From a virus: a DNA stretch of 30,668 nucleotides. Numbering within the stretch: the first letter of the stretch is position 1; each line of letters starts with the position of its first letter. Below the pieces are notes generated by a model. That model was given only the letters and a program-made list of their open reading frames with translations, did no database searches and had not been told where the DNA came from. Below are positions 5,501 to 22,186 of this stretch, piece after piece. The stretch spans positions 1 through 30,668 of IMG/VR virus record IMGVR_UViG_3300025085_000115; one strand, written 5' to 3'. The translations under genes were made by a program, and so were the position numbers.

Positions 5501-8500
5501 AGACGCATTAGGTCACCCAATATTACACGCTAATCCAACTTCAGGTGCAGGTATAACTGTTATTTACGAAACTCCAACAATTACAAACATAACCTACACT
5601 AACGCAACTTACAATACTACTTATTTAGGGTCAAATACTTTAATATGGAATGACGCAAATCATGGTACAGGTTCTGGTTTAGACGCAGATAAGTTAGATG
5701 GTCAGGAAGGAACCTATTATTTAGATTATGGTAATTTTACTGGTACACCTACGATACCAACTACTTTTGCTCCAACAAACGCAGAACAAAACGTTAATGC
5801 TGATTGGAACGCAACAAGCGGTGATGCTCAAATTCTTAATAAACCTACTATACCTACAGACTTTGTATCTGCTGCAAACGGTGGAACTTTTAGTGGTGCT
5901 ATTTCTGCACCAACAGGTTCTACTTTTGGAGGAGCAATAAAAATTACAGAAACAGGAACTGCACAACATATACTTATAGGTAATCAAGATTCAGGAGGAG
6001 TAGATAAACCTGCAATGATACGAGGTGTTAATGGTAACTTAAAACTTGGATACGGGGACGCATGGACAGGAGAAGGCGGTACTATGACAATTGGATTGAC
6101 GCTAGACACTAATTCACACGCAACTTTTGCAGGGACAATTGGTTCTGGTGCTATAACATCTACTGGTAAAATAACTGGAACAGAAATAGAAGGAACTAGT
6201 CTAGATATTAATGGTGCTGCTGATATAAGTGATGTATTAAAGTTATCTAAGAGTAATGGTGCACTTATTACTACTAACAATACAACAGACGCTTTTGGTT
6301 ATAATGCAACAGCAGGACTAGGGCATTACATAAGAGGTACTGGTTCTACTTATATTTATGGAGGTGGAAAATTTTGGGATGGAAGCACAACACACACTCT
6401 CCTTCACTCTGGTTCGACTATATCTACTTCACAGATATCTAATTTATCAGGTACAAATACAGGTGATCAAGACTTAACACCATATACAACTACAGATGGT
6501 AGTGGTGATGAGTGGAAGTTTACACTAGGCGATGAAGGTTCTCTTACTGGTAATAAGTGGTATAAAGTTGCTATTGTAAATCAAGGAAACGGTGGATTAC
6601 ATATTAAGGGGTCTCTCTCTAATCATGTTGAGTCTTTTGCTACACAAAAAGTTGATTTATTAATACAAGGTAGAGAGGGTGGTGCTAGTGCACCTATTGA
6701 AATAACTGGTACAGTAGATGTTTTACATAACGCTTCTGGAGCATCCGCTACAGACAAAGCAGGTATAAGAGTTGTTGAAAGCGATAACACTACTAGTGCA
6801 TATTATCATTTCTACGAGGTATATATAAGAACTACTAGATATACTCAAGCAAAATTCCATTTAACTAAATTTGGAGCAACAAGTTTTTATACAACAAAAC
6901 CAAGCGTTACATCAGAACCTGCACCAGTATCTGGTGGTAATGTAGAGTTAGACACTTCAACATTACAAGAAGGTAACTATGTAGTAGACGATAGTACTCC
7001 TAGAGAAATATACCACGAAGGTCATAAACCTACTTACACTGAGTTAGGATCAATGGCATATTCTAATTTAACAGGAACACCAACTATACCTACAGATTTT
7101 GTATCTAAAGCAAGCGGTGGAGCATTTACAGGAAATGTTCAAGTAAATTCAGCAGCCGCTTATTCTTTTCAAACCTCTTCAAGTCAAAGATATAATATAC
7201 AAATAAGGAATACTGGAAACACTGTTAATTCAGGTTATGGATGGTGGCTTGCAACAGATACTGATTTTAAATTTGCATTACACGCTGATGGAGCAGGAGA
7301 TAGGTTTAGTTTAACTAGAGAAGGATATGGAACCTTTTATGGTGGTCTAGCAGTAAATGGTGATGAATTAGTTGTTAAAGGAGAACACCCAACTATTAAT
7401 TTAATTGACACTTCTTCAGGTGCAGATGATTTTTATTTGCATGTAAACTCTAATAATTTTTATGTACTTGCCGATAGAGATGGTGCAAACAATATAGATA
7501 GTGGTTGGGATTCTCCACATCCATTACAACTAGAAGGTGACACAAATAAGGCATATCTTTTTGGTAATGAAGTTAAATCAGCAGCGTTTACACTTTCAAC
7601 AGATTATGCCCCATCATCAGTAGTAAACCAAACAGATTTTGTATCAAAAGCAAACGGAGGAACCTTTAACAATCCTTTAATAATTAAAGATATAAATTCA
7701 GGAGGCACAACAACAGGAACAACTTTGTTAGAATTATGGAATGCTAATAGTTCTGATTTATCCCAACAACAATCTTTTATAGATTTTAAACTTACAGACA
7801 CTAATGCTAACTTCACACCACAAGTTCGTATAGGTGCTCAGGTTGGCCCTGATTCTAATGCAGATGCAATATCAAAAGAAGGTGCAGGTTCGTTTGTAGT
7901 TTACACCTCTGATATTGGAAGTGATGAAGTAGGTGGTGGAAGTCTTACAGAGGCAATGAGAGTGAAATACAATAATGTTCTTTCAACTCAAGGTTCAGTT
8001 GTTTCTAACAATACTAGTGCCATGAATGTTGCACATTGGTCTGCGAGTGGTACTAGTAGTGGAATGATTAAAATAACATTACCAGGAACACACAGCAGTA
8101 ATTGGTCTATGTTGGTGCTTAGAATTACATCCTATGAGTACAACTCAAATAATCATACTGTATATTATGTTTCTGGTCATGACTGGACTACTGGTTGGTA
8201 CAATAATGGTGTTACTAAATGGGGAACATCACCAAAAAATATTAGATTAGCATATAGTTCAACTCAAGATTGTATTCTTTTAGGTCAAACATCAGACTCA
8301 TGGAGTTACGGTCATGTTACTGTAGATGTAGTTTCACATCCGAGTTTTTACCATGGTAGTATGGATATTACAGAAGGATGGGAAATAGTTCAACAAACAA
8401 ATGAATTAGGTTTAACTACTCAGTCTGTAACTAATAGACAAGTTTTTGATACTGGACATTTACCTACATTTGCTGAGGTTTCTAGTAAACCAACAACTTT

Positions 8501-10187
8501 ATCAGGATATGGAATAACAGATGCAATTCAAAAAGGTGCACAAATCGCAAGTGGTGCTTCTTGGACTACAGCAACTAAATTTGGATCTACTGGTGATCTT
8601 TCGCAAGCAGCAGGTAATCATGCTTTATCTGTTAGATCTGAAAATAACAATGATGCTTTCATGTCATTCCATATTGGAAGTGATTATGCAGTTCATTTTG
8701 GTTTAGATGGTGCTAGTAACAGAATGCATGTTGGAGGTTGGTCTGATGGCACAGGAACTCAGTATCAATTATATGACTCTAGAGATTTTAGTGTTGCTAG
8801 TGTATTAAATTCAAATGTAACCCTTAGTTCATTAGGTGCGGCTGCATTAAATGATATACGTTCTTTAGGAACTCAAGCATTTACGAATGGTTCAAACCCT
8901 AACATAACAACAGCACAAGTTATAGCAGAGATTGAATCAGATGGTGGTTTTGATTCTTATAGTTCTGTATTTAAAACCTCTTGGAGTTATGCAGGGAATT
9001 TTAACTTAACAGACGCAGGTAGATTTACAGAAACAGCAGGTAGTTCTTGGATAACTTGGACAGATAATTCTTCAGACTCTACAAGAGGAAATATAACAGC
9101 ATTAGCAATAGCACCAAATACAGGTGGTTCAGCAGGAAAAGTATTTATATACAATGACCAAGGTGGTAGTTATGCACCAGGTTGGAGAGAGGTTTGGACA
9201 AACACAAGTGATGGTTCAGGTTCAGGATTAGACGCAGACAAGTTAGATGGTCAACATGGTAGTTATTATGCTGTTGCTAATGATGTAGTTACAAAAGCAG
9301 GAACTCAAACTATAACAGGTAATAAAACTTTTTCCAATACTGGTAATACATTTAATGGACACCTTTATTATACTGCTTATAGTGCTTCTGGCTATCATTA
9401 TCCTCATTTTTTAGATGGGTCTAGTGCTTCAGGTTCTAAAATTCAATGGAGACAATACTATGGAACTAGTTACAAAACTCACACATGGAATTCTGATTCG
9501 TCAGGTAATATGGTGTTTAACTATGATGGTGAACTTCAAGGAAACGGATTAAGAATTAATGGGAATTCCAATTTTATAGGAGATATAAATCTTGGTTTGG
9601 CATCAGATACATCTCAAAGGGTTTTATATCTGCATGGTTATAGTGCTAACAAAACATCCACAATAAAAACTACTAATGGTAATTTACATATAGATTCAGA
9701 AGATGGACACAGTTTATATTTAAATTACTATGAAGGTGCTAGTACAAATATATATTTTGGTACAGGTAATGGTGGTTATTGTGGTACAGTTTCTTCAGCA
9801 GGTCTTCTTAGAATGGCTAATGATGTTGTTGCTTACTATAGTTTTTCTGACAGAAGATTAAAAACAGATATTAAAACAACTGAAAATAATCTAGAAAAAA
9901 TCTTATCTTTAAATCCTGTAGAATATACATGGAAAGAAGGACCTAGAGAAGGAGTAAAAGAAATAGGTCTAATAGCACAGGAAGTAGAAGAAGTTGTTCC
10001 TGAAGTAGTTAGAGTACAATCTAGACATCATGATGAAAAAACAGAAGGAGAAGAATATAAGCAAGTAGATTATGAACATCTAGTTTCAACATTAATTGGT
10101 GCTATGCAAGAACAACAACAACAAATAGACGAACTTAAATCACAAATGGCTGCATGTAACGCAATGTCATGTAAATGTAAAAATTAA
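2589..10187 (+). CDS. Giant tail fibre with C-terminal S74 chaperone
   Basis: At 2532 residues this is one of the two longest proteins in the window. The N-terminus (MAIEFLNGIDLTG) matches that of the upstream fibre. The body alternates repeated linkers with globular modules. Six copies of a unit like IPTDFVSAANGGTFSG, two of TTFAPTNAEQNVNADW, two of GSGLDADKLDGQ and several YHEGHKPT units are visible. Longer unique segments lie around residues 840-1030, 1310-1460 and 1810-1940, probably carbohydrate- or receptor-binding domains. The end is a peptidase S74 intramolecular chaperone. The motif FSDRRLKTDI places the predicted self-cleavage before Ser2420, followed by NPVEYTWK, EIGLIAQEVE, VDYEHLV and a Gln-rich coiled coil. 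In this family the chaperone drives trimer folding and then cuts itself off, so mature fibre should be ~2419 residues. Confidence 0.95.
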   Translation: MAIEFLNGIDLTGTLELKTLTTNTDSTTALVISGDEVQKRALGSLAFSSATIPTDFVSAANGGTFSGNVIVEDSEIHVGDTSGDSWTRILHAQANGYGFNFQHSNATVLVNEQGSTNQALVLGDVDAGDQDGLFGIAHKTATTSWAKVLNLKGNGELYIGSDGTKQVYHEGHKPTLAELGAAADTVVNQTDFVSKANGGTFSGAITINKNGDALNLRSTTNAQKSRITFSSDVPDDQVGYIEYTHSNSVSYGSGEAFIIGGNQTTTTILADGKLMYDEGIYSKPASGTGAGTRKDSNWDTAYGWGDHSLAGYASGTIPTDFVSAANGGTFSGAVKIDGSFKWATTNATSYTYSNADTLGLYIETVGSTAALSDMRFQARAAGTGNYSSIKIKPSDQSILLGTNGSTRLKLDSSGDATFTGDVTLLEDLYATNQNLKFHAGGTHVMNIDVNGKVYPNTHNVYDLGHSPTLAWRNIYSSGTIYGTSATFTGDITSTGLTVDYTGNRTGDAGILVTNDSSDWGIKVDKDGTGDYGILSQTDGENAIVVRNAAGTNKIQLQGDGDASFVGDVTVGGDLIVNGTTTTLNTTTVEVEDNILQLNTTQGTPDTATAATSGISIYRGDGVTQASLIFDDADDTWDLTDDLVVDGFIIAKSHLEAFSFLYLRNDIRLLNKAENGWLTFADRNTSASEAVYDLAHVGTISTSGNATFGGDINTSTVQISNGNSYNENIRMFPGSNDYSSIILGAVSGTSGTGTGQWTLVRYPSATHSNKFSIRHNSTDALVLDTSSNATFTGNIIMAANATVDGVDISALPTTFAPTNAEQNVNADWTSTSGDSQILNNPGTPYLTGVTDRHVFPGLAASGAQARKHHIGRVYYCPKHWDTTWQNIYFTLNEETYNSGYVKYHLYGYYNGTNDQTLNLRVVDYRGNNSDINKYCIKLGSHTDAGWDHSGQNVYYTDIYLEVAYYKSVKVVVDALGHPILHANPTSGAGITVIYETPTITNITYTNATYNTTYLGSNTLIWNDANHGTGSGLDADKLDGQEGTYYLDYGNFTGTPTIPTTFAPTNAEQNVNADWNATSGDAQILNKPTIPTDFVSAANGGTFSGAISAPTGSTFGGAIKITETGTAQHILIGNQDSGGVDKPAMIRGVNGNLKLGYGDAWTGEGGTMTIGLTLDTNSHATFAGTIGSGAITSTGKITGTEIEGTSLDINGAADISDVLKLSKSNGALITTNNTTDAFGYNATAGLGHYIRGTGSTYIYGGGKFWDGSTTHTLLHSGSTISTSQISNLSGTNTGDQDLTPYTTTDGSGDEWKFTLGDEGSLTGNKWYKVAIVNQGNGGLHIKGSLSNHVESFATQKVDLLIQGREGGASAPIEITGTVDVLHNASGASATDKAGIRVVESDNTTSAYYHFYEVYIRTTRYTQAKFHLTKFGATSFYTTKPSVTSEPAPVSGGNVELDTSTLQEGNYVVDDSTPREIYHEGHKPTYTELGSMAYSNLTGTPTIPTDFVSKASGGAFTGNVQVNSAAAYSFQTSSSQRYNIQIRNTGNTVNSGYGWWLATDTDFKFALHADGAGDRFSLTREGYGTFYGGLAVNGDELVVKGEHPTINLIDTSSGADDFYLHVNSNNFYVLADRDGANNIDSGWDSPHPLQLEGDTNKAYLFGNEVKSAAFTLSTDYAPSSVVNQTDFVSKANGGTFNNPLIIKDINSGGTTTGTTLLELWNANSSDLSQQQSFIDFKLTDTNANFTPQVRIGAQVGPDSNADAISKEGAGSFVVYTSDIGSDEVGGGSLTEAMRVKYNNVLSTQGSVVSNNTSAMNVAHWSASGTSSGMIKITLPGTHSSNWSMLVLRITSYEYNSNNHTVYYVSGHDWTTGWYNNGVTKWGTSPKNIRLAYSSTQDCILLGQTSDSWSYGHVTVDVVSHPSFYHGSMDITEGWEIVQQTNELGLTTQSVTNRQVFDTGHLPTFAEVSSKPTTLSGYGITDAIQKGAQIASGASWTTATKFGSTGDLSQAAGNHALSVRSENNNDAFMSFHIGSDYAVHFGLDGASNRMHVGGWSDGTGTQYQLYDSRDFSVASVLNSNVTLSSLGAAALNDIRSLGTQAFTNGSNPNITTAQVIAEIESDGGFDSYSSVFKTSWSYAGNFNLTDAGRFTETAGSSWITWTDNSSDSTRGNITALAIAPNTGGSAGKVFIYNDQGGSYAPGWREVWTNTSDGSGSGLDADKLDGQHGSYYAVANDVVTKAGTQTITGNKTFSNTGNTFNGHLYYTAYSASGYHYPHFLDGSSASGSKIQWRQYYGTSYKTHTWNSDSSGNMVFNYDGELQGNGLRINGNSNFIGDINLGLASDTSQRVLYLHGYSANKTSTIKTTNGNLHIDSEDGHSLYLNYYEGASTNIYFGTGNGGYCGTVSSAGLLRMANDVVAYYSFSDRRLKTDIKTTENNLEKILSLNPVEYTWKEGPREGVKEIGLIAQEVEEVVPEVVRVQSRHHDEKTEGEEYKQVDYEHLVSTLIGAMQEQQQQIDELKSQMAACNAMSCKCKN
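4300..4308 (+). repeat. GGGGYGACC motif, copy 1 (T form)
   Basis: GGGGTGACC inside the giant fibre gene, read in frame as ..G GGT GAC C.. (residues Gly-Gly-Asp). This frame differs from that of copy 2. Confidence 0.5.
5019..5807 (+). repeat. 51-bp direct repeat pair flanking a globular fibre module
   Basis: The units at 5019-5069 and 5757-5807 both encode PTTFAPTNAEQNVNADW and differ at only a few silent positions. They are 738 bases apart, an exact multiple of three. Recombination between them would remove 246 residues in frame, including the aromatic-rich module with GRVYYCPKHWDTTWQNIYF. Confidence 0.8.
5127..5135 (+). repeat. GGGGYGACC motif, copy 2 (T form)
   Basis: GGGGTGACC inside the giant fibre gene, read as GGG GTG ACC (Gly-Val-Thr). 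All three codons are rare choices in this AT-rich DNA. Confidence 0.5.
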
Positions 10188-11693: not shown

Positions 11694-12347
11694 ATGAAAG
11701 AGCCTTGCGTAGATTGCAACGACACAAAAAAACCTAGAATATTTATAGCCTCACCAGGAAACAGTTTTTCTAATAATTTTTTAAATTCCTGGACAAACTT
11801 AATTATGTGGATAGTAAACAATGGATATTTGTTTACATCAAATGTTGATTATAGTTCTCTTATACAAACATCTAGAGATAAGGTAATGGGAACGTCACAT
11901 AATTCAGCACAGCCATTTGATGGAGAGTTTGACTTTGACTATATGTTATGTATAGATTCAGATATGGTTTTTACTCCACAAAATTTACAAAATTTATTAT
12001 CTAGAGATGTTCCTGTAGTTTCAGGAATTTATAGAATTAAACCTGATGATGCATGGTCTTCTTGGGTTGGTGGCGACCAATCAGAAGGAGGAGACTGGAT
12101 AAATGATGAATATGTAGAGAAACATAAAGATCAAATGATTCAAGGAGACTTTGGAGGGTTAGGTTTTACACTTATTAAAAAAGAAGTATTTGATAAACTT
12201 ACACCTCCATTGTGGTTTGATGATCAAGCAGATAAAAACTACGGAGAAGACGTTGTATTCTTTAGAAAAATTAAAGCAGCAGGATACGATATTAACTTCG
12301 ACATGTCTGTAAAGTTAGGTCATGAAAAAACCTTTATATTCATATAA
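11694..12347 (+). CDS. GT-A fold glycosyltransferase
   Basis: This 217-residue protein has a nucleotide-sugar transferase layout. An early strand and loop PRIFIASPGNSF (14-25) begins the fold. YMLCIDSDMVF (83-93) carries the DxD-type metal and sugar-nucleotide motif at Asp88-Asp90. VPVVSGIYRIKP lies at 106-117 and GDFGGLGFTLIKKEVF at 151-166. GEDVVFFRKIKAAGYDI (184-200) supplies the acidic residues expected near the acceptor site, and GHEK at 209-212 supplies the late histidine. The gene lies between the fibre cluster and the tail-connector genes, so it could glycosylate virion proteins or host surface sugars, but the substrate cannot be read. CVDCND near the N-terminus is a small cysteine pair of unknown meaning. 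There is no Shine-Dalgarno; AACAAACAAT precedes the ATG. Confidence 0.85.
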   Translation: MKEPCVDCNDTKKPRIFIASPGNSFSNNFLNSWTNLIMWIVNNGYLFTSNVDYSSLIQTSRDKVMGTSHNSAQPFDGEFDFDYMLCIDSDMVFTPQNLQNLLSRDVPVVSGIYRIKPDDAWSSWVGGDQSEGGDWINDEYVEKHKDQMIQGDFGGLGFTLIKKEVFDKLTPPLWFDDQADKNYGEDVVFFRKIKAAGYDINFDMSVKLGHEKTFIFI

Positions 12348-12432
12348 GAACTGGACAGTAAAAAAATACACGTCCTTTATATTATTTCACTTTATTTGTA
12401 TAAACAAAAATTAAAATCAACATTTATTTATT
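12348..12432. other. 85-base gap before the connector genes
   Basis: This is the longest non-coding stretch. GGAC at 12353-12356 can pair with GTCC at 12372-12375, but the 4-bp stem is too weak to call a terminator. TTTATTTG at 12391-12398 resembles a Bacteroidota -7 box (seven of eight) but has no TTTG 19 bases upstream. A transcription start for the connector genes is possible but not supported. Confidence 0.3.
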
Positions 12433-12717
12433 ATGGCAAAGTTAAAAAAAGAAGAACTAGAAGTAGTTCAAAAGAGTAACCAGAAGCAGTTTGAAATAAA
12501 AAACGCTTTGGCTGAATTAGTAATCGCAAAAGAGTCGTTTGATCAAAGAAAGCAATCATTGCTTAAATCTTGGAGTGAGGCGATAGCGGAACAAAAGAAA
12601 ATCCAAGAGGACTTAAAAGAGACCTATGGAGAAGTTACTATAGACATCCAAACAGGCGAAATAATAGAACCTGCTCCTGAAAATGTAGAGCAAGATGACA
12701 ATAAAGGAGATTCATGA
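12433..12717 (+). CDS. Small coiled-coil protein
   Basis: This 94-residue protein is almost wholly helical and charged. Residues ~3-65 form a probable coiled coil rich in Lys, Glu and Gln. A conserved-looking tail follows, KETYGEVTIDIQTGEI (~62-77), then an acidic end (NVEQDDNKGDS). The coiled coil plus 'YG.v.Id..TGEi' layout is common in small unnamed proteins of marine phages. An 85-base non-coding gap precedes it, the longest in the window, so a new transcript could begin here. The last 23 bases overlap the next gene in another frame, implying coupled translation. It might be a scaffold or chaperone-like factor, but that is a guess. Confidence 0.82.
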   Translation: MAKLKKEELEVVQKSNQKQFEIKNALAELVIAKESFDQRKQSLLKSWSEAIAEQKKIQEDLKETYGEVTIDIQTGEIIEPAPENVEQDDNKGDS

Positions 12718-13543
12718 TTATATAGTCTTTATTCTTAATAAGGAAACTACTGGGTATATATCACACGATGATATTGATGCGGCTATTGATAGAGGTCAAA
12801 TGTCGAAGTTCATGGAGTTGTATAGCAACCCTAAACAACATCAGCCTGGTAGGCCTATTCCTCCTGTTGCTTATGGACAAACTCAGAAAATATCTGATGA
12901 TTTAAGATTTTTTAAAAGAAGAGAACAGTTCACAAGTAGCAATGCAGGAATTATAGATTTTGCAAACTTAACAGAATACTTGCATTTACTTGGGGTATAT
13001 GTTGTAGGTACATTAAATAATACACCAAATAACACATATACAATTACAGATGGAACTATTGCTTTTTCTCAAGGAACAGTTAATAGAACATATAACAAAC
13101 CAGTAAAAGTAGTTAATGAAGATCAGTTAGCAGACAGATTAATTTCTCAAGTATCTGCTCCTTCAACCACTTCACCTATAGGTATACTTGGTGATCAAGG
13201 ACAAAAAATACAATTGTTTCCAGAAACACAACACTCTGGATATATTATGTATTTAAGCAGACCAGTTAAACCATTATTTAGTCATGTAGTAGATGGTAGA
13301 AAGATTGTGCATAATGCAAGCGGATCTTCTGCAACATTTACAGCATCTTCATCTCTTACACTTCCTGATGGAACTACTGTAAGTTCTGGGGCGACCTATA
13401 CATTACCAGGAAGCATTGAATTAAATTGGCCAGAGGATTGTATTAATGACATTATAAACAAAGCATTGGTATCGCTTGGTGTTCATATAGAAGACTTAAA
13501 TGTATATCAATACTCAGAAGTTAAAAATCAAACAGGGCTATGA
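12695..13543 (+). CDS. Tail-connector/ring-like structural protein
   Basis: This 282-residue protein begins MTIKEIHDYIVFILNKETTG with helical sequence. A characteristic block PGRPIPPVAYGQTQKISDDL follows (residues ~51-70), then FFKRREQF. The middle and C-terminal parts are beta-rich, with SGYIMYLSRPVKP (~182-194) and ELNWPEDCINDIINKALVSL near the end, a helix that could pack in a ring. I recognise this block from structural proteins next to the tail genes of Bacteroidota phages, including crAss-like ones, where ring proteins join portal and tail. The start is accepted despite a 23-base overlap because the N-terminal helix fits the family and the next ATG is 34 codons later. The gene ends in an ATGA overlap with its neighbour. 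Confidence 0.82.
   Translation: MTIKEIHDYIVFILNKETTGYISHDDIDAAIDRGQMSKFMELYSNPKQHQPGRPIPPVAYGQTQKISDDLRFFKRREQFTSSNAGIIDFANLTEYLHLLGVYVVGTLNNTPNNTYTITDGTIAFSQGTVNRTYNKPVKVVNEDQLADRLISQVSAPSTTSPIGILGDQGQKIQLFPETQHSGYIMYLSRPVKPLFSHVVDGRKIVHNASGSSATFTASSSLTLPDGTTVSSGATYTLPGSIELNWPEDCINDIINKALVSLGVHIEDLNVYQYSEVKNQTGL
13388..13396 (+). repeat. GGGGYGACC motif, copy 3 (C form)
   Basis: GGGGCGACC inside the connector gene at 12695-13543, read as GGG GCG ACC (Gly-Ala-Thr). Confidence 0.5.
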
Positions 13544-14181
13544 TAACAAAAGGAAAAATAACAGATCAAATATTAAGGTTATATTCAGGTGGTAGTCCTA
13601 ATGATGAAAAAGAAATATCTAGAGATGATATTAACTTATTAGTTAGTCAAGTAATTAATAGACTTCTTAAAACAGAGTATTTAGCAATGAATGTACAGAT
13701 GGGAGATGATTTTCCTCCACATACATTAGTTACAACATACTACGTTGACTTGACTAGTAACACAACTCAAAATGAATATGTACATGCTTACTTACCTGTA
13801 ATGCCTTTGTCTCTACCAAGAAATATGGGTGTTTGGTCTGTAAGTAATGCGGCAGGAACTAGAGATGAATATATACCAATACAAACTGGTCAACAATCTT
13901 TAGTAAGTTCACAAGACTCATTAAAATACTTAGAAACACAAATAGCATATTGGGCCGAAGGAAATGTTATTAATTTTTTATCAGATATTACAGAAAGTCC
14001 TTTTAATGTAACTAAAGTAAGAATACAGTTATTAATAGTAGATCCAAATATTTTAGGTGAATATGATTACTTACAAATTCCTATAGAAATGGAAGAAGTG
14101 GTTGTAAAAGAAGTTTTAACATTAATTGGTGCACTACCTAAGGTAGTAGATAAAGCATCAGATTCAAATAGTCAGATATGA
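13540..14181 (+). CDS. Tail-connector/ring-like structural protein
   Basis: This 213-residue protein starts in the ATGA that ends the previous gene and itself ends in another ATGA, so three connector genes are translationally chained. The N-terminus is helical (MITKGKITDQILRLYSGGSP, then SRDDINLLVSQVINRLLKTE). A beta section with HAYLPVMPLSLPRNMGVWSV (~86-105) and DEYIPIQTGQQSL follows. The end is helical (EMEEVVVKEVLTLIGALP). The 'lP..P.sLPrn.GVWsv' block recurs in structural proteins of Bacteroidota phages. A ring or tail-completion role is likely from position; no enzymatic motif is seen. Confidence 0.82.
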   Translation: MITKGKITDQILRLYSGGSPNDEKEISRDDINLLVSQVINRLLKTEYLAMNVQMGDDFPPHTLVTTYYVDLTSNTTQNEYVHAYLPVMPLSLPRNMGVWSVSNAAGTRDEYIPIQTGQQSLVSSQDSLKYLETQIAYWAEGNVINFLSDITESPFNVTKVRIQLLIVDPNILGEYDYLQIPIEMEEVVVKEVLTLIGALPKVVDKASDSNSQI

Positions 14182-14933
14182 AAGTATACACAGTAAATGA
14201 AATAGTTCGTTCTGCCTTGTTAACTACAGGAAAGCCTATACATTACTATATGCATTATTTGCATTATGCTTTAAAGGCTGTTAAAGAAATTGGTTTTGAC
14301 TCTCCGTTTAAAATTAAATCTACAAAGTTAACAGTAGATGCAAATAGAGAAATCACTATACCAGATGATTATGTAGATTATATAAGAGTAGGATGGGAGA
14401 ATGGTCAATATGTAAAAAAATTAATAGAGAAAGATTCTTTTAACAGATTAATGAATTTAGATTCTAATGGGAATCAAATTCCATATCCAGATATAGAAAC
14501 AGATCAAGGGTTGATATATGCGGATAATAATGACACACATTCAAATGATAAAAGTGAGCATATAGGTAGACACTTTGGTCATAAGGCTACTTATAAAAAT
14601 TCTTTTATGGTAATACCAGAAAGAAATAAAATCATGTTAGATCCTTCTTTACATGAAGCAAAACATATTGTTATAGATTATATAACGACAGGTTTAACAG
14701 ATACAGGGACAGATGCAACAACTTTGCCTGCATATGCAGCAGAAGCAATAGAAAGATATATTTTGTGGAGATATTCTGAGCACGATAGAACTATACCTAT
14801 GAATGGTAAGTTAATGGCAAAAGAAGAATGGCTACAGGCACACAAAAGATATAGAAGTAGAAACTATCAGTTGTCATTAGATGATGTTCTTAAATCATTA
14901 AGATCTCATACATATGCGGCTGTTAAATCTTAA
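14178..14933 (+). CDS. Head-tail adaptor-like protein
   Basis: This 251-residue protein has the layout of podovirus adaptor proteins (P22 gp4 or T7 gp11 type): an N-terminal helical bundle, then strands. Residues 1-40 are helical (VNEIVRSALLTTGKPIHYYM, ALKAVKEIGFD). Residues ~45-75 hold a strand and turn (KLTVDANREITIPDDYVDYI). A C-terminal helical part contains AAEAIERYILWRYSEHDRTI and KRYRSRNYQLSLDDVLKSLR. In this superfamily twelve copies form the ring under the portal. The assignment rests on layout and on its position immediately before the nozzle-like gene, not on a database match. Five bases separate the last sense codon's stop region from the next ATG cluster, suggesting coupled expression. 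Confidence 0.8.
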   Translation: MKVYTVNEIVRSALLTTGKPIHYYMHYLHYALKAVKEIGFDSPFKIKSTKLTVDANREITIPDDYVDYIRVGWENGQYVKKLIEKDSFNRLMNLDSNGNQIPYPDIETDQGLIYADNNDTHSNDKSEHIGRHFGHKATYKNSFMVIPERNKIMLDPSLHEAKHIVIDYITTGLTDTGTDATTLPAYAAEAIERYILWRYSEHDRTIPMNGKLMAKEEWLQAHKRYRSRNYQLSLDDVLKSLRSHTYAAVKS

Positions 14934-14935
14934 GA

Positions 14936-17900
14936 ATGGAGAATTCAAAGAAAACATTTATAGCAGGTATTAATACTGATGATTCTTTTTTTGCATTAAC
15001 TGCTCAAGATAATTTAGACGCTCTTAATTCAAGAGTTGTAACATCTTCAGAAGGTAAAGCAGGATCAATATCTAATGTTGATGGAACAAGAAAAATACCA
15101 AACTATAACTCTTTTAAAAACACAAAAGTTATTGGATCTTACGAAGATGCAACAAGTAACAATGTGTTTTATTTTCTGGTAAACACAGAGTCAGGAAATA
15201 GTTCTATTTATTGTTACAAACCAAAAGAAGATAATATTTATAAAGTATTGTCTGACAGTAACTTAGAATCAAGTTATAAATTAGGATTTAATCAATTGAA
15301 GCCTATTACAGGAATAGGTTATATAGATGATATATTATATTGGACTGGAGTTGAAGGTAAGGAACCTTTTAGAATTAATGTAGAAAGAGGTATATCAACA
15401 AACAATGCTTCTTATACAACTACATTTGATCCTTATATACTGCCCCTAAAAAAATCTATAATTACTTTAATTCGTAAGCCTCCGATGCTTCCGTTAAAGA
15501 TAACAATTCAGGAAGACTCTGATCGAGATACATCGTTTTTAAAATCTAGATCTCATACGTTTGCTTATAGATATGTATACAAAGATGGTGAAACTAGTGT
15601 ATTTTCTCCAACCTCACATCATTATCCAAATCAAGATATGGATGATGATAATCATAAAACTTCTAGAAAAATTAAAGTTGATTTTCCATTGTATGAAGCA
15701 GAGTCAAATGGTATATCACAAGACGTACATAAAATTCAATACGCAGTTAAGTTTGATAAAGACACTTCTTATTTTATATGGAAAGAGTTTGATAATGTAA
15801 CACATACAACAGAATTTGCAGCACAAAACAATGCTGTAGAAGGAGTTATTACAGCAGATTTTTACAATGACGTTTTAGGTTTTGCTGTTGATGATGTTAA
15901 CTCTATTAAGTTATATGATACTATTCCATATGAAGCCGAAGCATTAAGCATTGCAAGAAATAGATTGTTTTTAGGAAATATTAAAGAGGGTAGATTAAAT
16001 CCAAAACAAATAAACTCTACTGATATATCTTTAGAATTGTTAACATCAAATTTTTCTGATTCTTTTTCTCAATATGATAGAAATAGAGGTGGTAAGGTAG
16101 GATTTTCTCATGCTTCTGCATATCAAATTGGTATTGCTTTTTTTGATTTTGCAGGTAGAACTGGCGGTGTTTTAACTGATGACAGTTTAAAAATTATAAC
16201 TCCAGAAAGAGATCTTTCATTAAACACTTATAATTCTTTTATAAATTTTACTTTAAATGAATCTCTAAGAAATAAAATACCAGATTGGGCAGAATATTAT
16301 GCTATTGTTAGAACAAAAAATTTAACAAAAGATTTTACATTGTCAAATTTATCTGATAAAGTAAGATATTTTCAGACAGCATCTACAGGTAATTTTAGTG
16401 TTAATATAGAAAAGGTTTATCCTACTAATGATGATAATGATAATAAAGGATTATCTGGAACTCCAAACGGAACTTTTGAAGATCAAGAATTTGTTTCGTT
16501 TAGTACTGATCATGAAGGTCTTGCTGTAGGTTTAGGAGATTTAACATCTTATAAACAGGGGTATACTTATCAAGAAGGTGATAGAATAAAATTAATAACT
16601 GCAAACAATGTTTTTGAAGCCTCAGTAATAGGTCAAGAAGGTAAATATGTTAAAATAAACTTATACAATTTTAACGCACCTGAATATTTAAATACGTCTG
16701 CTTTATCAAATGTAGATTACTCTACTGTATATGAAATATATAGCCCTCATAAAATACAACCAAATGAGTTTTATTATGAATCATTTAATGGTAGAATTTT
16801 AAGGCAACCAAATGAATTGCCTAGTTTTTCTGATACTACAGGACAATTAATTGGTGATGTTTATTTAAAAAACTTAATTGCTGATACAAGTACACTTGAA
16901 AGTTTTTTCTTTGAAGGAAAATCTTCTACAGAAAGTGGCCAAGATAATGAAATTGTGGGTGAAATAAAATATATTGATTTTCCTATTTTCTATGGAGATG
17001 GTGTAAACGATATGTCTTGTAATAGTGGTGTTAATAATGGAACAGGTGGAGATGATCTCAGATTTGATATAAAAATAAGTTCAACTGGAACACCTGATAA
17101 ATTTAAATGGAGAAAAAGAGCAAGAACTGAACTTAGTTCTCAGGTTGCTTATTCTTCAGAAGTAAGTATAACAGGATCTAATCAGACTTTATCTGATGGG
17201 GTGACAGTAATTTTTGGTGCAACAACAGGACATACTTTAGATGACAGGTGGGTTGTAAATTATAAAATAGCAGACAACTCTGCTATGAATGAAGAGCATA
17301 AAAGGGCTTATGGAATATATCCTGGTGGACCAAATGGTACTATTTTAATTAACTCTGATATAAGAGTTTATTTTACTGAATATAAAGGAGGAACATTTTT
17401 TGCGGATGAGGTTAGAAATACTTGGGATTTAGACTATCCTGGTTCACAGGTTACTCAAACATATGCAAATATAGAAGAATTGTTCTGGGAAACTACTTTT
17501 GGATCATCAATAGTTTCATCAGCAACAGGAGGTATGAGTAATTTTGCTTTTAGAAGAGGAACATTAATTCCTAACGGAAATGGTGGACAAACTCAATTAA
17601 ATATATTAGATCATGAAAACAACCCAGGATCTCAATCTGTAAGTAATACTGATGGTTCTACCATTCATATGATTTATGAAGGTACATTGAGAAAGAATAA
17701 TGGTGGAAGAAATATAGATTCAACTAATAACATTAATGTTGACTATACAGATGAGTTTCCGTATGCAGCAGAGTCAATGAATCCAAGTAATGATTATTTT
17801 TTAAACTGGATTCAGATAACAGGCAAACCTAATTTAGTGCCTTCAGAGGTTAGTAGTCAGAAAAAAACTACTGGTATTGTATTTAGTGAAACTAAAATAC

Positions 17901-20176
17901 CAGGAAGTAAAATAAATGGACTATCAAAATTTAGTGCCTTAGATGAAAAAAGATTAGATGATGCTACTGGACCATTAAGATCTTTAAAAATAACAAGTAA
18001 AACACAATCGACAGGTTCTGTTTTATTAGCCATTTCTGAAAATGAAACTACAGGCATATATCTAGGTGAACAACAATTACAGCAAACATCTAGTGGAGGA
18101 CAATTCTTAGCGGTTTCTTCTGGGGTTATAGGAACCATGAACACATTACAAGGATCATATGGAACACAGCATCCAGAGTCAATAGTAGTTAATGAAGGGA
18201 CAGCATTTTGGTTTGATGTAAAAAACCAAACAGTAGTAAGATATGATTCTAATGGTTTAACAGCAATTGGAGATAATAAAATGAAAACTTTTTTCAAAGA
18301 AAAGTCTAGTATTATTTCTACTGATTCATTACCACATTTTGTGGTAGGAACTTATGATGATTATAATTCAGAATACATTATAACTTTACCTAAAACTGGT
18401 GAGGTTACAACGGTGTTACAGGAGGATCCTTATTATCCAGACACACCTATAATTGATATTACTAATGAAGGTGAAGTGCCTTCTACAAAAATAATTGACT
18501 TTACAATTATAAAACCTTGGAATATAAGTGGATCAATTACGATTATTGAAGGTGTTGGTACAATAACATTTGATTCTCCATACGGTTTTACTATACCTAG
18601 TTATGTTGTTATGGATCCTAGTGGATCTGATATCACTATCACAAATTCTAGTAGTGGTGGATTTACTGAAAATTCTGGAGGATATTTTGAATCTGGATCT
18701 GGGTCTTTAACTGTTAGTAATGTTTTTGGTGATATAGATTTTATACAATTACAATTATTAATGTTTGCAGTTCCATCTTCAGAAGACATTATTGTATCTA
18801 ATTTATTAGAGTACACAAACGACACTTCATTTTTGTATGGATCTCAAAGTAGTGGTAACACACCAATAAGAGTAACAGGTGCCACTTCAGGAACTTTCCC
18901 AATGTTTGAGGAAAAAAGTATTTCTTTAACAAATGGAACCGCAACAATTGCAGGCACTTCTTCAATAGCATGGCAATTTGGAAACACAAACGATAACTCT
19001 ATTAATTTTACAGAGTGTTCACTAGGTGTTTGCAGTAACATTCCATCAAGTAGAGTATCAACAAATGCAACAGCCATTGACGAGTCAGGCACTACAATAG
19101 GCTATCAACCTGGATCTTTTAATATTGTTATTAATGACATAAGCGAAAATATAGATAGTATAGTTATAGATTCTAGGCCATTGAAAAAAGCCCAGTTAAA
19201 TGCTGTTCTTTTTGATGATATTACTTCTTCAAGTTTAGAATTAAATTCATCTATAGTTTTAAATAGAGAGACTGCAACTGAATTTGGTTTTGTTTATTCT
19301 ACTACAAATACTAGTCCTGTAATAGGAGGATCTGGGGTGACCAAACAAACTGTTTCAGATGCAACTAGTATGTCTTATAATATAACTGGTCTAAGTGCTG
19401 AAACAACTGTTTATGCAAAAGCATATTTAATATCAAACTTTGGTACTAAATATGGAGCATGTTATAACCAGGCTACAGGATCTGCAAGTAATACCGCACC
19501 ATCAGTAACGTCTACATCTTTTAGTTCTAGTAATAATAGGTTTACAGGAACTATTACTTCTAATGGTGGATCCTCAGCAGGAACAAATGGAATTACAGCA
19601 AGAGGATGGGTTTATTCTTCTTCTGACAATACACCTGTAATAGGAGAGTCAGGGGTTATAAATCTAATTCATCCACAGAATGCTATAGCATCTTTTCCAT
19701 ATGTGTTTACTAGTAATACAACTTTATTAGTAAGTAACACAACATATTATTGGAGAGCATACGCTAAAAACGATGTTGGCACTACTTATGGAAGTGTTCA
19801 GAACTTTACTACAGCAAACACATCAGTTGGTATTGGTGGTTTTATATTACAAAGTAGTACTGTATCTGCTAATGGAGGGTATGTTGATTTAGATGTTACT
19901 AAAAATGTACAGACTGGAATTGCAGCAGGATCGATAGGTGTTGTTATAAGTGCAAGTAATCAAATAATAGAATCTGAAACTGTTCAGGTTGCCTTTACAA
20001 ATACACAAACTTTAGATTCAGTACAGGTTTATATACCTGCTAATTTTGGTGGAACCACAAGAACTATTAATTTAAAAGTGAATCAGTTTACGTCTATAGC
20101 CAATGCTACAGGATCAAATACACCTGTTAGTATATCAGGAACTATAACACAACAAGCATCACAATATCAACCATAA
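14936..20176 (+). CDS. Giant nozzle/muzzle-like tail protein with Ig, FN3 and BACON-like domains
   Basis: This 1746-residue protein has several parts. The start (FIAGINTDDSFFALTAQDNL, then DALNSRV and SNVDGTRK) matches the opening of podovirus nozzle and crAss-like muzzle proteins. GYIDDILYWTG and HTFAYRYVYKDGETSVFSP (from ~208) continue that pattern. At ~1086-1150 come NEGTAFWFDVKNQTVVRYDS, NGLTAIGDNKM and VVGTYDDYNSEYIITL, the propeller-like end of such proteins. From ~1157 the sequence departs from the family. It has Ser/Gly-rich beta domains, then two FN3-like units (~1420-1525, TEFGFVYSTTN and TTVYAKAY; ~1530-1627, TTYYWRAYAKNDVGTTYG). The last is a BACON-like domain (~1628-1742) ending ISGTITQQA. 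The usual end of a nozzle protein is missing here and seems to lie in the next gene, five bases on. Function: tail tube lining, with surface domains that may bind glycans. Confidence 0.88.
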   Translation: MENSKKTFIAGINTDDSFFALTAQDNLDALNSRVVTSSEGKAGSISNVDGTRKIPNYNSFKNTKVIGSYEDATSNNVFYFLVNTESGNSSIYCYKPKEDNIYKVLSDSNLESSYKLGFNQLKPITGIGYIDDILYWTGVEGKEPFRINVERGISTNNASYTTTFDPYILPLKKSIITLIRKPPMLPLKITIQEDSDRDTSFLKSRSHTFAYRYVYKDGETSVFSPTSHHYPNQDMDDDNHKTSRKIKVDFPLYEAESNGISQDVHKIQYAVKFDKDTSYFIWKEFDNVTHTTEFAAQNNAVEGVITADFYNDVLGFAVDDVNSIKLYDTIPYEAEALSIARNRLFLGNIKEGRLNPKQINSTDISLELLTSNFSDSFSQYDRNRGGKVGFSHASAYQIGIAFFDFAGRTGGVLTDDSLKIITPERDLSLNTYNSFINFTLNESLRNKIPDWAEYYAIVRTKNLTKDFTLSNLSDKVRYFQTASTGNFSVNIEKVYPTNDDNDNKGLSGTPNGTFEDQEFVSFSTDHEGLAVGLGDLTSYKQGYTYQEGDRIKLITANNVFEASVIGQEGKYVKINLYNFNAPEYLNTSALSNVDYSTVYEIYSPHKIQPNEFYYESFNGRILRQPNELPSFSDTTGQLIGDVYLKNLIADTSTLESFFFEGKSSTESGQDNEIVGEIKYIDFPIFYGDGVNDMSCNSGVNNGTGGDDLRFDIKISSTGTPDKFKWRKRARTELSSQVAYSSEVSITGSNQTLSDGVTVIFGATTGHTLDDRWVVNYKIADNSAMNEEHKRAYGIYPGGPNGTILINSDIRVYFTEYKGGTFFADEVRNTWDLDYPGSQVTQTYANIEELFWETTFGSSIVSSATGGMSNFAFRRGTLIPNGNGGQTQLNILDHENNPGSQSVSNTDGSTIHMIYEGTLRKNNGGRNIDSTNNINVDYTDEFPYAAESMNPSNDYFLNWIQITGKPNLVPSEVSSQKKTTGIVFSETKIPGSKINGLSKFSALDEKRLDDATGPLRSLKITSKTQSTGSVLLAISENETTGIYLGEQQLQQTSSGGQFLAVSSGVIGTMNTLQGSYGTQHPESIVVNEGTAFWFDVKNQTVVRYDSNGLTAIGDNKMKTFFKEKSSIISTDSLPHFVVGTYDDYNSEYIITLPKTGEVTTVLQEDPYYPDTPIIDITNEGEVPSTKIIDFTIIKPWNISGSITIIEGVGTITFDSPYGFTIPSYVVMDPSGSDITITNSSSGGFTENSGGYFESGSGSLTVSNVFGDIDFIQLQLLMFAVPSSEDIIVSNLLEYTNDTSFLYGSQSSGNTPIRVTGATSGTFPMFEEKSISLTNGTATIAGTSSIAWQFGNTNDNSINFTECSLGVCSNIPSSRVSTNATAIDESGTTIGYQPGSFNIVINDISENIDSIVIDSRPLKKAQLNAVLFDDITSSSLELNSSIVLNRETATEFGFVYSTTNTSPVIGGSGVTKQTVSDATSMSYNITGLSAETTVYAKAYLISNFGTKYGACYNQATGSASNTAPSVTSTSFSSSNNRFTGTITSNGGSSAGTNGITARGWVYSSSDNTPVIGESGVINLIHPQNAIASFPYVFTSNTTLLVSNTTYYWRAYAKNDVGTTYGSVQNFTTANTSVGIGGFILQSSTVSANGGYVDLDVTKNVQTGIAAGSIGVVISASNQIIESETVQVAFTNTQTLDSVQVYIPANFGGTTRTINLKVNQFTSIANATGSNTPVSISGTITQQASQYQP
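19334..19342 (+). repeat. GGGGYGACC motif, copy 4 (T form)
   Basis: GGGGTGACC inside the first FN3-like unit of the nozzle-like gene, read as GGG GTG ACC (Gly-Val-Thr). Confidence 0.5.
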
Positions 20177-20181
20177 AAGAC

Positions 20182-21741
20182 ATGAGTAATTTTTGCATAG
20201 ATACAGATTTTAACCCAGGAGACGAAATAAAAATTGTTTTCAATATTAGCAATGAGGTTCCTACTACAACCGCAAAAACTGTCTATATAGTAGATTTACA
20301 AGAAGGAAATCCACATAGTATTGCTGAATCAAATATTACGCAAAGTGACTATAATTTAATACAAAGTCAAAATGAAAGTTGGAGTAATGTTCGTGCAAAT
20401 TATATACACCCAACAGGTTGGGAAAGTAATGCTGATTACTTTGCAGGTGCAACCTCTACAGATGGTTCATACAATACTACTCAAATAATAAATCAAACTG
20501 GTCACGAAGCGTCTGCTGCCAAAATAGCATCAGATATATCAAGGACCATAAGTGGTGTTACTTATGATGATTGGTATTTACCTACATCATATCAGTTAAA
20601 TACTATGTATAATTTAATGTCTGTTTTAGATCCTATAATCGTAAATCAAGGAGGAAGTAGGTTGAGAAAAAATCATTCTTGGGCTATTGTAAAAAATTAT
20701 TGGGCATCAAACGAGGCTTCTAATCAGTCAAGTAACAACCCAGTAATTAGTATGTCTTTTAATCCAAACTCAGGAGGTGGTGCAACTTTTGGTAGACGTA
20801 AATATCATAAGTTTAGAACTAGAGCAATAAGGCATCAAACTACTACTGATAACGTTTCTGTTGGAGATGTATTTGGTGGTGGAGTTATATTTAAAATAAT
20901 AGACAGTGACACAGCAATAACACCAGAAGTTGATTTAGATGTTACTATGGGTTATGCAGATACAAATATATTTTCATCTGATGATTTAGCAAGTGGTTAT
21001 TCTAATTCAGGCATAGAACTAACAGTTACTAGTAATCATGGTTCAAACCCTCAGATATGTTTTAATTATACAAACAGTAATGCAGGGTCTTATGCTTGGC
21101 AAACAAATGTGCAAATATTTAAAAAAATAGAGGAAATATCAGAGGAAGTACAAGCAGGTGCTAGGCAAACAATAGCCTGGAGTGAAGCAGCCCAAAGATG
21201 GGTTACAAGGTATTCGTTTACTCCTGAATATTTTTCTACTTATAAAACAACCTTTGCTTCATTTGTAAATGGAGAGTTATTTATTCATGATGATGTTAAT
21301 AATAAAAACTATTTTTACAATGGTAAATATCCAACTCAAATTAGTTATGTTGAGAATATAGAACCATCACAACCTAAGGTGTTTATGACACATTCTGTTG
21401 AAGGTAATTCACAACCAACTTTAACTAAGTTTGAGACGATAGATAACTGGACTATGAATAGTGACCTTATAAAAGGTGATTATATTAAAAGAGAGGGAAC
21501 TTATTACTCTGATATATTTGGAGACGTTAATGATCCTAACGTAGGAGATAACGCTTCATATGGTGATAAGTTAATGAAAGGAACAAAACTAAGAGGTCAA
21601 TACTTAAAAGTATTTATGACTTTCAGACAAGAAGATTTAGAAGTAAAACATTCTAATATTGGATATATAACAAGTAAAGGACATACAACAAATGGTGAAA
21701 GAGCAATTAATCAACGTGCATACAGAAACAAGGGTTACTAA
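20182..21741 (+). CDS. C-type-lectin-like domain joined to nozzle/muzzle C-terminal domain
   Basis: This 519-residue protein appears to be built from two unrelated parts. Residues ~70-218 resemble a DUF1566-type C-type-lectin-like fold: DDWYLPTSYQLNTMYNLM (from 129), HSWAIVKNYWASNEAS and FRTRAIRHQ (210-218). A second motif, VGDVFGGGVIFKIIDSD, starts near 226 and is typical of the start of such domains, so a partial second copy may follow. From residue ~327 the protein reads ARQTIAWSEAAQRWVTRYSF, then TFASFVNGELFIHDD, PKVFMTHSVEG and KLMKGTKLRGQYLKVFMTF. I recognise this as the end of podovirus nozzle or crAss-like muzzle proteins. It probably completes the tail tube begun by the previous gene and displays a lectin-like domain outside. 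The last 50 bases overlap the cupin gene. Confidence 0.85.
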   Translation: MSNFCIDTDFNPGDEIKIVFNISNEVPTTTAKTVYIVDLQEGNPHSIAESNITQSDYNLIQSQNESWSNVRANYIHPTGWESNADYFAGATSTDGSYNTTQIINQTGHEASAAKIASDISRTISGVTYDDWYLPTSYQLNTMYNLMSVLDPIIVNQGGSRLRKNHSWAIVKNYWASNEASNQSSNNPVISMSFNPNSGGGATFGRRKYHKFRTRAIRHQTTTDNVSVGDVFGGGVIFKIIDSDTAITPEVDLDVTMGYADTNIFSSDDLASGYSNSGIELTVTSNHGSNPQICFNYTNSNAGSYAWQTNVQIFKKIEEISEEVQAGARQTIAWSEAAQRWVTRYSFTPEYFSTYKTTFASFVNGELFIHDDVNNKNYFYNGKYPTQISYVENIEPSQPKVFMTHSVEGNSQPTLTKFETIDNWTMNSDLIKGDYIKREGTYYSDIFGDVNDPNVGDNASYGDKLMKGTKLRGQYLKVFMTFRQEDLEVKHSNIGYITSKGHTTNGERAINQRAYRNKGY

Positions 21742-22186
21742 TTATAAACAAAAATTAGAAGATCTTCAAAATATGATGATTGCTAACAATGATAGAGATG
21801 GTATCTATGGAGATGGAAAGACATTAGTTAATAATGAAGAATTCAAAATAACTCATGATTTCTCAGATCAATTGTATATGAGGAAAATGAGAATGCCTGA
21901 AGGGTCATTTGTGGTTAGTGCGATACATCATACTGATCATTTTTGGTTTTTATTATCTGGTAGAATATTTGTTACGACAGATGGAGAAACAGTAGAGCAT
22001 GTAGCACCTTGTTATGCTAGATCTATAAAAGGAGCAAAAAGATTTATAGTTTGTGCGGAAGAGTGTTTATTTATTAATGTACACAAGAACCCATCAAACT
22101 CACAAGACATTGAAGAAGTACAGGATGAATTGTACTCTATAACAATAGAAGAATATAATAAAAAAGAAAAATCATGGCAGGAATAG
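21692..22186 (+). CDS. Cupin-fold protein
   Basis: This 164-residue protein has a double-stranded beta-helix (cupin) signature: LYMRKMRMPEGSFVVSAIHH (66-85), THTD-like HHTDHFWFLLSGRIFVTTDG (84-103), then HVAPCYARSIKGAKRF and LFINVHKNP. The histidines at 84-85 and 88 and the late His (VHKNP) could form a metal site. Similar small cupins occur among the tail genes of many phages, with no established function. It lies between the nozzle C-terminal gene and the internal-protein genes. The ATG at 21692 overlaps the previous gene by 50 bases. Alternative ATGs at 21773 and 21776 would avoid the overlap and give a 137- or 136-residue protein still holding the whole cupin core, so the true start is uncertain. 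Its end overlaps the next gene by 13 bases. Confidence 0.82.
   Translation: MVKEQLINVHTETRVTNYKQKLEDLQNMMIANNDRDGIYGDGKTLVNNEEFKITHDFSDQLYMRKMRMPEGSFVVSAIHHTDHFWFLLSGRIFVTTDGETVEHVAPCYARSIKGAKRFIVCAEECLFINVHKNPSNSQDIEEVQDELYSITIEEYNKKEKSWQE

Follow-up and report, generated by a model that had tools for sequence, protein, structure and literature searches.

We found that the muzzle, the protein closing the tail tip, is encoded by two adjacent genes, here called P1 and P2, in this crAss-related phage. The two-gene muzzle is well supported by sequence homology. Very probably, P1 and P2 specify the two chains of a single muzzle subunit, although co-assembly is inferred and not shown. The break falls in a hairpin of the muzzle propeller, and the DNA that fills it encodes domains absent from unsplit muzzles. 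The source is a 30,668-base virus record (IMG/VR IMGVR_UViG_3300025085_000115), analysed as a whole and hereafter called the window.

The muzzle locus and its two reading frames

The reading frames were as the earlier note had described them: an open reading frame of 1746 aa, a TAA stop, five nucleotides, then an ATG opening a frame of 519 aa. The features of the locus are as follows.

12695..14933 (+): virion structural genes 5′ of the muzzle, probably for ring proteins of the tail barrel (phrog_14543, E 6e-11; phrog_13977, E 1e-21)
14936-20176 (+): P1, 1746 aa, stop codon TAA
14936..18391 (+): P1 residues 1-1152, the muzzle itself, with the start of the propeller, the Ig/crass regions and the blades as far as strand B of the broken one
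17921..18391 (+): P1 residues ~996-1152, N-block immediately 5′ of the break, from conservation and the end of the N-HMM
18431..20173 (+): P1 residues ~1166-1746, insert of tandem Ig/FN3-like domains, missing in unsplit muzzles (Foldseek)
20174..20181 (+): P1-P2 junction, TAA then AAGAC (5 nt), with the P2 ATG at 20182
20182-21741 (+): P2, 519 aa, ATG start, in a frame different from that of P1
20182..20307 (+): P2 residues 1-42, N-terminal beta-sandwich part 1 (pLDDT 88-92 for residues 1-20; also in locus L164)
20308..20901 (+): P2 residues ~43-240, nested insert with Lcl_C/DUF1566-like domain (match 111-217)
20923..21141 (+): P2 residues 248-320, beta-sandwich part 2 (pLDDT 73-92)
21160..21741 (+): P2 residues 327-519, muzzle C-part, running from the last strands of the broken blade through the final blade to the C-terminal domain
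21301..21522 (+): crAss_MUZ_C domain (PF25729), inside the P2 C-part

P1 lies directly 3′ of tail-ring-type structural genes, the usual place of a muzzle gene and one of the criteria used for its identification; structural genes likewise lie 5′ of the muzzle in phage phi38:1. Downstream, a gene at 21692-22186 overlaps the end of P2 by 50 nt and resembles families of short tail fibres and tail adhesins (phrog_12032, E 6e-23); it also matches a cupin weakly. A tail fibre protein of 2532 aa with a C-terminal S74 endosialidase-type chaperone domain is encoded at 2589-10187.

Muzzle homology of P1 and P2

Residues 28-1111 of P1 matched the muzzle-type structural protein gp97 of phi38:1 (tblastn, E 2e-17), proteins of other flavophages matched too, and the muzzle region of P1 matched phrog_14478 (E 1.3e-43). 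The N-terminal and central muzzle homology also required for identification was met by the gp97 match and the alignment. In P2, residues 374-447 matched PF25729, crAss_MUZ_C, with 37.8 bits (E 2.7e-9; the cut-off is 27 bits). A profile-profile comparison (hhalign) of the P2 C-part of the window clade with unsplit muzzle C-termini gave a probability of 99.1 and an E value of 5e-19. The P1 insert, run as a control against the same unsplit C-terminal profile, gave no match (E 0.7). The earlier note would have been refuted if residues 327-519 of P2 were unrelated to nozzle C-termini, or if P1 were already complete at its C-terminus. The first does not hold, residues 327-503 being homologous by both methods, and nor does the second: a further muzzle C-terminus within P1 was considered and rejected, since none was found by HMM scan or in the insert control.

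The muzzle blocks, placed earlier at about residues 1086-1150 of P1 with a continuation from about 330 of P2, were borne out: GTAFWFDVKNQTVVRYDSNGL and YDDYNSEYIITL lie at P1 ~1088-1108 and 1140-1151, and AWSEAAQRWVTRYSFTPEYF begins at P2 ~332. When aligned with the unsplit muzzles of phi38:1, Gundel, elemoF and cr118_1, the last P1 block, YDDYNSEYIITL, adjoins the first muzzle block of P2, TIAWSEAAQRWVTRYSF; only in the window clade are the two separated, by ~910 residues. The central claim of the earlier note, a muzzle split in two genes with domains filling the break, is thereby upheld. At the level of homology these data show that P1 comprises the muzzle as far as strand B of one of the late propeller blades (probably blade 6), and that P2 327-519 supplies the strands that come next, together with the last blade and C-terminal domain.

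Other searches were less informative. The crAss_MUZ model, PF25731, had no match in P1 up to E 0.1; it also failed to match phi38:1 gp97 and the unsplit relative L132, though both carry PF25729, so that this model does not reach the group. Among PDB sequences nothing matched P1, and P2 had a single weak match (HbP1, E 0.07).

The split is conserved among close relatives

The same split was present in 17 of 17 IMG/VR contigs whose P1 is 48-80% identical to that of the window (in one, P2 is cut by the contig end); no relatives were found in bacterial genome contigs. A single chain, a further criterion for a crAss-type muzzle, was consequently not met, every close relative having two open reading frames. 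The junction is always TAA, 1-11 nt and ATG, with gaps of 1, 3, 5, 6, 8, 9 or 11 nt and all three frame offsets. Because the split is kept in 17 contigs with variable gaps and frames, error, decay and programmed frameshifting are excluded as a general explanation. A single fused chain might still be imagined, produced by programmed frameshift, read-through, an intein or an intron, given that stop and start are close and that some relatives are in frame. This is very improbable: the gaps of 1-11 nt fall in all three frames without a shared shift site being seen, which led us to reject frameshift and read-through, no intein or intron domain was found, and in other lineages whole genes lie between the halves.

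Mean pairwise identity within the clade was 0.80 for the P1 N-block, the most conserved part of P1, 0.76 for the P2 C-part and 0.44, the lowest value, for the P1 insert. Between the window and its relative L018, dN/dS was 0.14 for the P1 muzzle region, 0.11 for the P2 C-part and 0.30 for the P1 insert (dN 0.277, dS 0.934), the fastest-changing part. These values show strong purifying selection on either side of the break and rapid change within it. It is scarcely credible that the break is a sequencing or assembly error or marks a decaying gene. Relative L023 does carry a frame break inside the P1 insert, but such an origin is contradicted by the low dN/dS on both sides of the gene break, by its occurrence in 17 contigs and by several cultured phages that are broken at the same hairpin. 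The L023 frame break itself (~14521, after residue ~1507) is probably an assembly error, because the closely similar L024 is intact.

Domains that fill the break

The hairpin joining the two blocks measures 4-22 residues in unsplit muzzles and ~30-70 in the closest unsplit relatives. In the window it holds the ~910 residues in the form of Ig/FN3-like domains followed by a sandwich with a nested Lcl-like domain, stop and restart lying inside. The earlier note had described Ig/FN3/BACON-like sequence: the top Foldseek matches of the P1 insert were FN3/Ig ectodomains and Pfam supported Ig/FN3 weakly, but BACON had no Pfam support. The lectin-like domain that it had seen in P2 is backed by the family more than by the window itself. 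Lcl_C (PF07603) reached only 15.1 bits in the window P2, below the curated cut-off of 34.9 (E 0.03), whereas nine of the ten family members scanned had a match with an E value no higher than 0.1 (best 2.2e-6). L164 and L182, the first branch of the split clade (P2 of 285 aa), have the split and the N-terminal P2 sandwich but lack the Lcl-like domain; for this reason the domain is best read as a nested addition to P2. An adhesive role of the insert is plausible; it is inferred from domain type only and has not been shown.

The same hairpin is broken in many muzzle loci

Loci retrieved with muzzles of the phi38:1 and window types were scanned with HMMs of the two blocks that flank the hairpin. 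This gave 96 distinct loci carrying both blocks, a non-random sample from which near-copies were removed. The muzzle was split in 44 of them, always at this hairpin. The N-HMM ends at one model position in split and unsplit loci alike, and in most split loci the break lies exactly at the hairpin, the ATG of the second gene preceding the strand by a small number of codons (mostly 2-4). The window clade departs from this pattern, its break lying inside an insert and both genes being extended. The unsplit homologues that the earlier note had proposed to look for exist, among them L132 (1173 aa, loop of ~30 aa) and L139-L150, which are related to the window clade and whose loops mostly measure ~30-70 aa; other unsplit muzzles have in-line inserts of ~138-172 aa at the same hairpin. 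On the tree (FastTree), the state changed between split and unsplit at least six times, and a 65-row IQ-TREE mixture-model check also gave at least six; independent fissions and fission followed by re-fusion were not told apart.

Two loci were left out of the split counts on the trees. L041 has an in-frame TAA before the muzzle C-part without a start codon (4768-4825), either an error or a nonsense change. In Maribacter phage Panino (L003, 5923-9836) the break lies elsewhere, upstream of the hairpin: its muzzle is annotated as two genes, of 946 aa and, with a GTG start, 320 aa, 110 nt apart, and a frame break was not distinguished from a sequencing error.

What fills the gap differs between split loci. 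Some have first-gene extensions of ~260-1300 aa; others have a separate Ig-like protein (L050 and L064, He_PIG in L064), a fibre-like protein (L058), glycosyltransferase-like genes (the L047 group and L060) or a short gene annotated 'putative glycosidase' (MW202828). In L113, a gene at 11837-12715 between the muzzle halves encodes an amidase and a peptidoglycan-binding domain and is likely a lysin. L224-L226 have sugar-modification islands several kilobases long.

These islands (L224 1076-3988, L225, L226) lie between the muzzle halves of contigs G003, G004 and G002, and encode a 2OG-Fe(II) oxygenase, a radical-SAM/SPASM protein, a GlcNAc-transferase (PF11397), an O-fucosyltransferase and an epimerase. 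They adjoin PTPTP-rich adhesin-like proteins. We take PF11397 to be the family of Skp1 hydroxyproline GlcNAc-transferases; the islands suggest glycosylation of phage adhesins, perhaps on hydroxyproline. In L224 (4011-5843) and L225 the muzzle-C gene carries an N-terminal extension of ~349 aa with a Thr/Pro-rich stretch. This is the second lineage of that kind and the only time that a long second-gene extension was seen outside the window clade, where it arose by other means.

The distance between the halves bears on whether P2 is a separate tail protein that merely bears a muzzle-type C-terminal domain, P1 closing its own propeller. In some genomes the C-part is indeed kilobases away. We nevertheless consider this improbable, as P1 lacks a C-terminus of its own, the best N-part and C-part of split loci are complementary pieces of one muzzle, and the C-part starts exactly at the missing strand.

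A model of the two-chain muzzle

Structure prediction gave limited help. With AF2 the muzzle strands of P2 alone had pLDDT of ~28-37, and the same strands in a read-through chain of L018 (79% identical) had ~63-73, with a pTM of 0.35. The rise is in the expected direction, but the sequences and alignments compared were not the same, which confounds it; both models were of single chains, and the pTM is low. Foldseek on the fused L018 model returned mostly FN3 proteins with low TM-scores and weak matches to crAss 'stabilization protein', and on the P2-alone model only insignificant matches. The Foldseek check put forward in the earlier note thus provided the FN3/Ig matches of the insert; proof of a completed nozzle fold was not obtained from either single-chain model.

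Most likely, the P1 and P2 chains co-assemble into one muzzle subunit, which is inferred and not demonstrated. The tight stop-start spacing would allow coupled, roughly equal synthesis of both, and strands of P2 would pair with those of P1 to complete the blade. By analogy with the C-terminal platform of T7 gp12, the C-terminal domain of P2 may connect the hexamer with the tail barrel, in which case P2 would hold the barrel joint and P1 the tip.

We assign the break to the loop connecting strands B and C of blade 6. In a propeller, such B-C loops share one face with the loops that link successive blades. It is from one of these inter-blade loops that IG1 departs, to lie beneath the propeller, which would place the broken loop on the same face as the inserted Ig/crass domains. 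Since the B-C loop shares its face with the IG1 exit, and IG1 lies below, the insert probably leaves toward the cell. From this topology, the Ig/FN3 tail of P1 and the sandwich-plus-Lcl head of P2 would probably project outward or cellward as host-contact domains.

The inserted domains could instead serve tail structure in a muzzle of two chains, stabilising or lengthening the tip or gating, without contact with the host. Ig/FN3-like domains are generally known to act often as spacers, no receptor is known, and in T7 propeller loops gate the channel (PMC6702177). This alternative is unlikely but not negligible: conservation is lowest in the insert, some members of the clade lack the nested Lcl domain, and other lineages have Ig/cadherin-like domains, glycosyltransferases or lysins at that place.

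The starting state in evolution was probably a short hairpin; gene fission probably followed, in some lineages by way of in-line insertion, and would leave free chain ends to which domains or whole genes could be added without threading through the propeller. We lean towards the broader proposal that this hairpin is a recurrent breakpoint, cut independently in several lineages, that the chain ends or the gap are a landing site for host-contact and sugar-modifying modules, and that the two-chain propeller is the tail gate. At the least, phages seem to have used this loop more than once to add host-contact parts.

The muzzle keeps the packaged genome in place and has been regarded as one conserved chain; the breakpoint in it is unexpected as well as recurrent. 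The natural, repeated two-chain form shows which loop tolerates large additions, the hairpin indicates a position at which host-contact parts may be swapped, and the split explains why many flavophage muzzles look truncated in annotation.

Comparison with known systems

The earlier note had described the split in this phage. It is real and not peculiar to this phage, recurring at the same hairpin in many lineages, cultured phages included. The muzzle is divided there in the Cellulophaga phages phi13:2, phi18:3, phi19:3 and phi46:3 (gp120/gp121 and equivalents). In phi13:2 the halves have 1613 and 241 aa and lie 3 nt apart, the first with Big_9, an Ig/cadherin-like domain, near its end and the second being PF25729. 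The N- and C-HMM ends of the window and phi13:2-type two-gene muzzles coincide on the same two strands, the C-gene carrying PF25729, which satisfied our criterion for a common breakpoint. Both pieces are annotated 'structural' in phi13:2 and its kin, by similarity to phi8:3 gp114 and gp115; Holmfeldt et al. (2013) reportedly detected the phi8:3 equivalents. We found no remark on a split muzzle or nozzle, for the cultured phages either, in the open literature, most subscription journals being outside its scope. Unlike in the window, the second gene of this group (241 aa) starts at the strand without an N-terminal extension, and the appended domain is unrelated. These cultured phages allow direct testing of two-chain assembly.

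The nearest annotated relatives are Pervagoviridae/Pachyviridae flavophages, not listed under the order Crassvirales. Gp97 of phi38:1 (Pervagoviridae) is the homologue of P1 1-1152 plus P2 327-519 and is likewise encoded 3′ of structural genes, but it is unsplit (1324 aa), with a spacer of ~6 aa. L132 (IMG/VR 3300008459_000104), among the nearest unsplit relatives, has the same C-terminal ending (SNGHTT / SKGHTT) and a similar loop start; it differs in being a single 1173-aa gene with no adhesin insert.

The crAss001 muzzle gp44 (PDB 7qok, 1371 aa) is a hexamer with a seven-bladed propeller and a ring-joining domain, and muzzle length varies through insertions in the crass and IG2 regions (PMC10172136). 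The C-terminal part of gp44 is homologous to that of the window muzzle, and through the cr118_1 alignment the break maps to the gp44 hairpin 'YFTYKDH | CLCYSE' near residue 1199. In contrast to the window, gp44 is one chain with a short hairpin, and its Ig and crass insertions are in other blades (PMC10172136). The T7 nozzle gp12, also a hexameric seven-bladed propeller with a C-terminal platform, which contacts the adaptor (PMC6702177), resembles the muzzle in this architecture and differs from the window in being a single chain.
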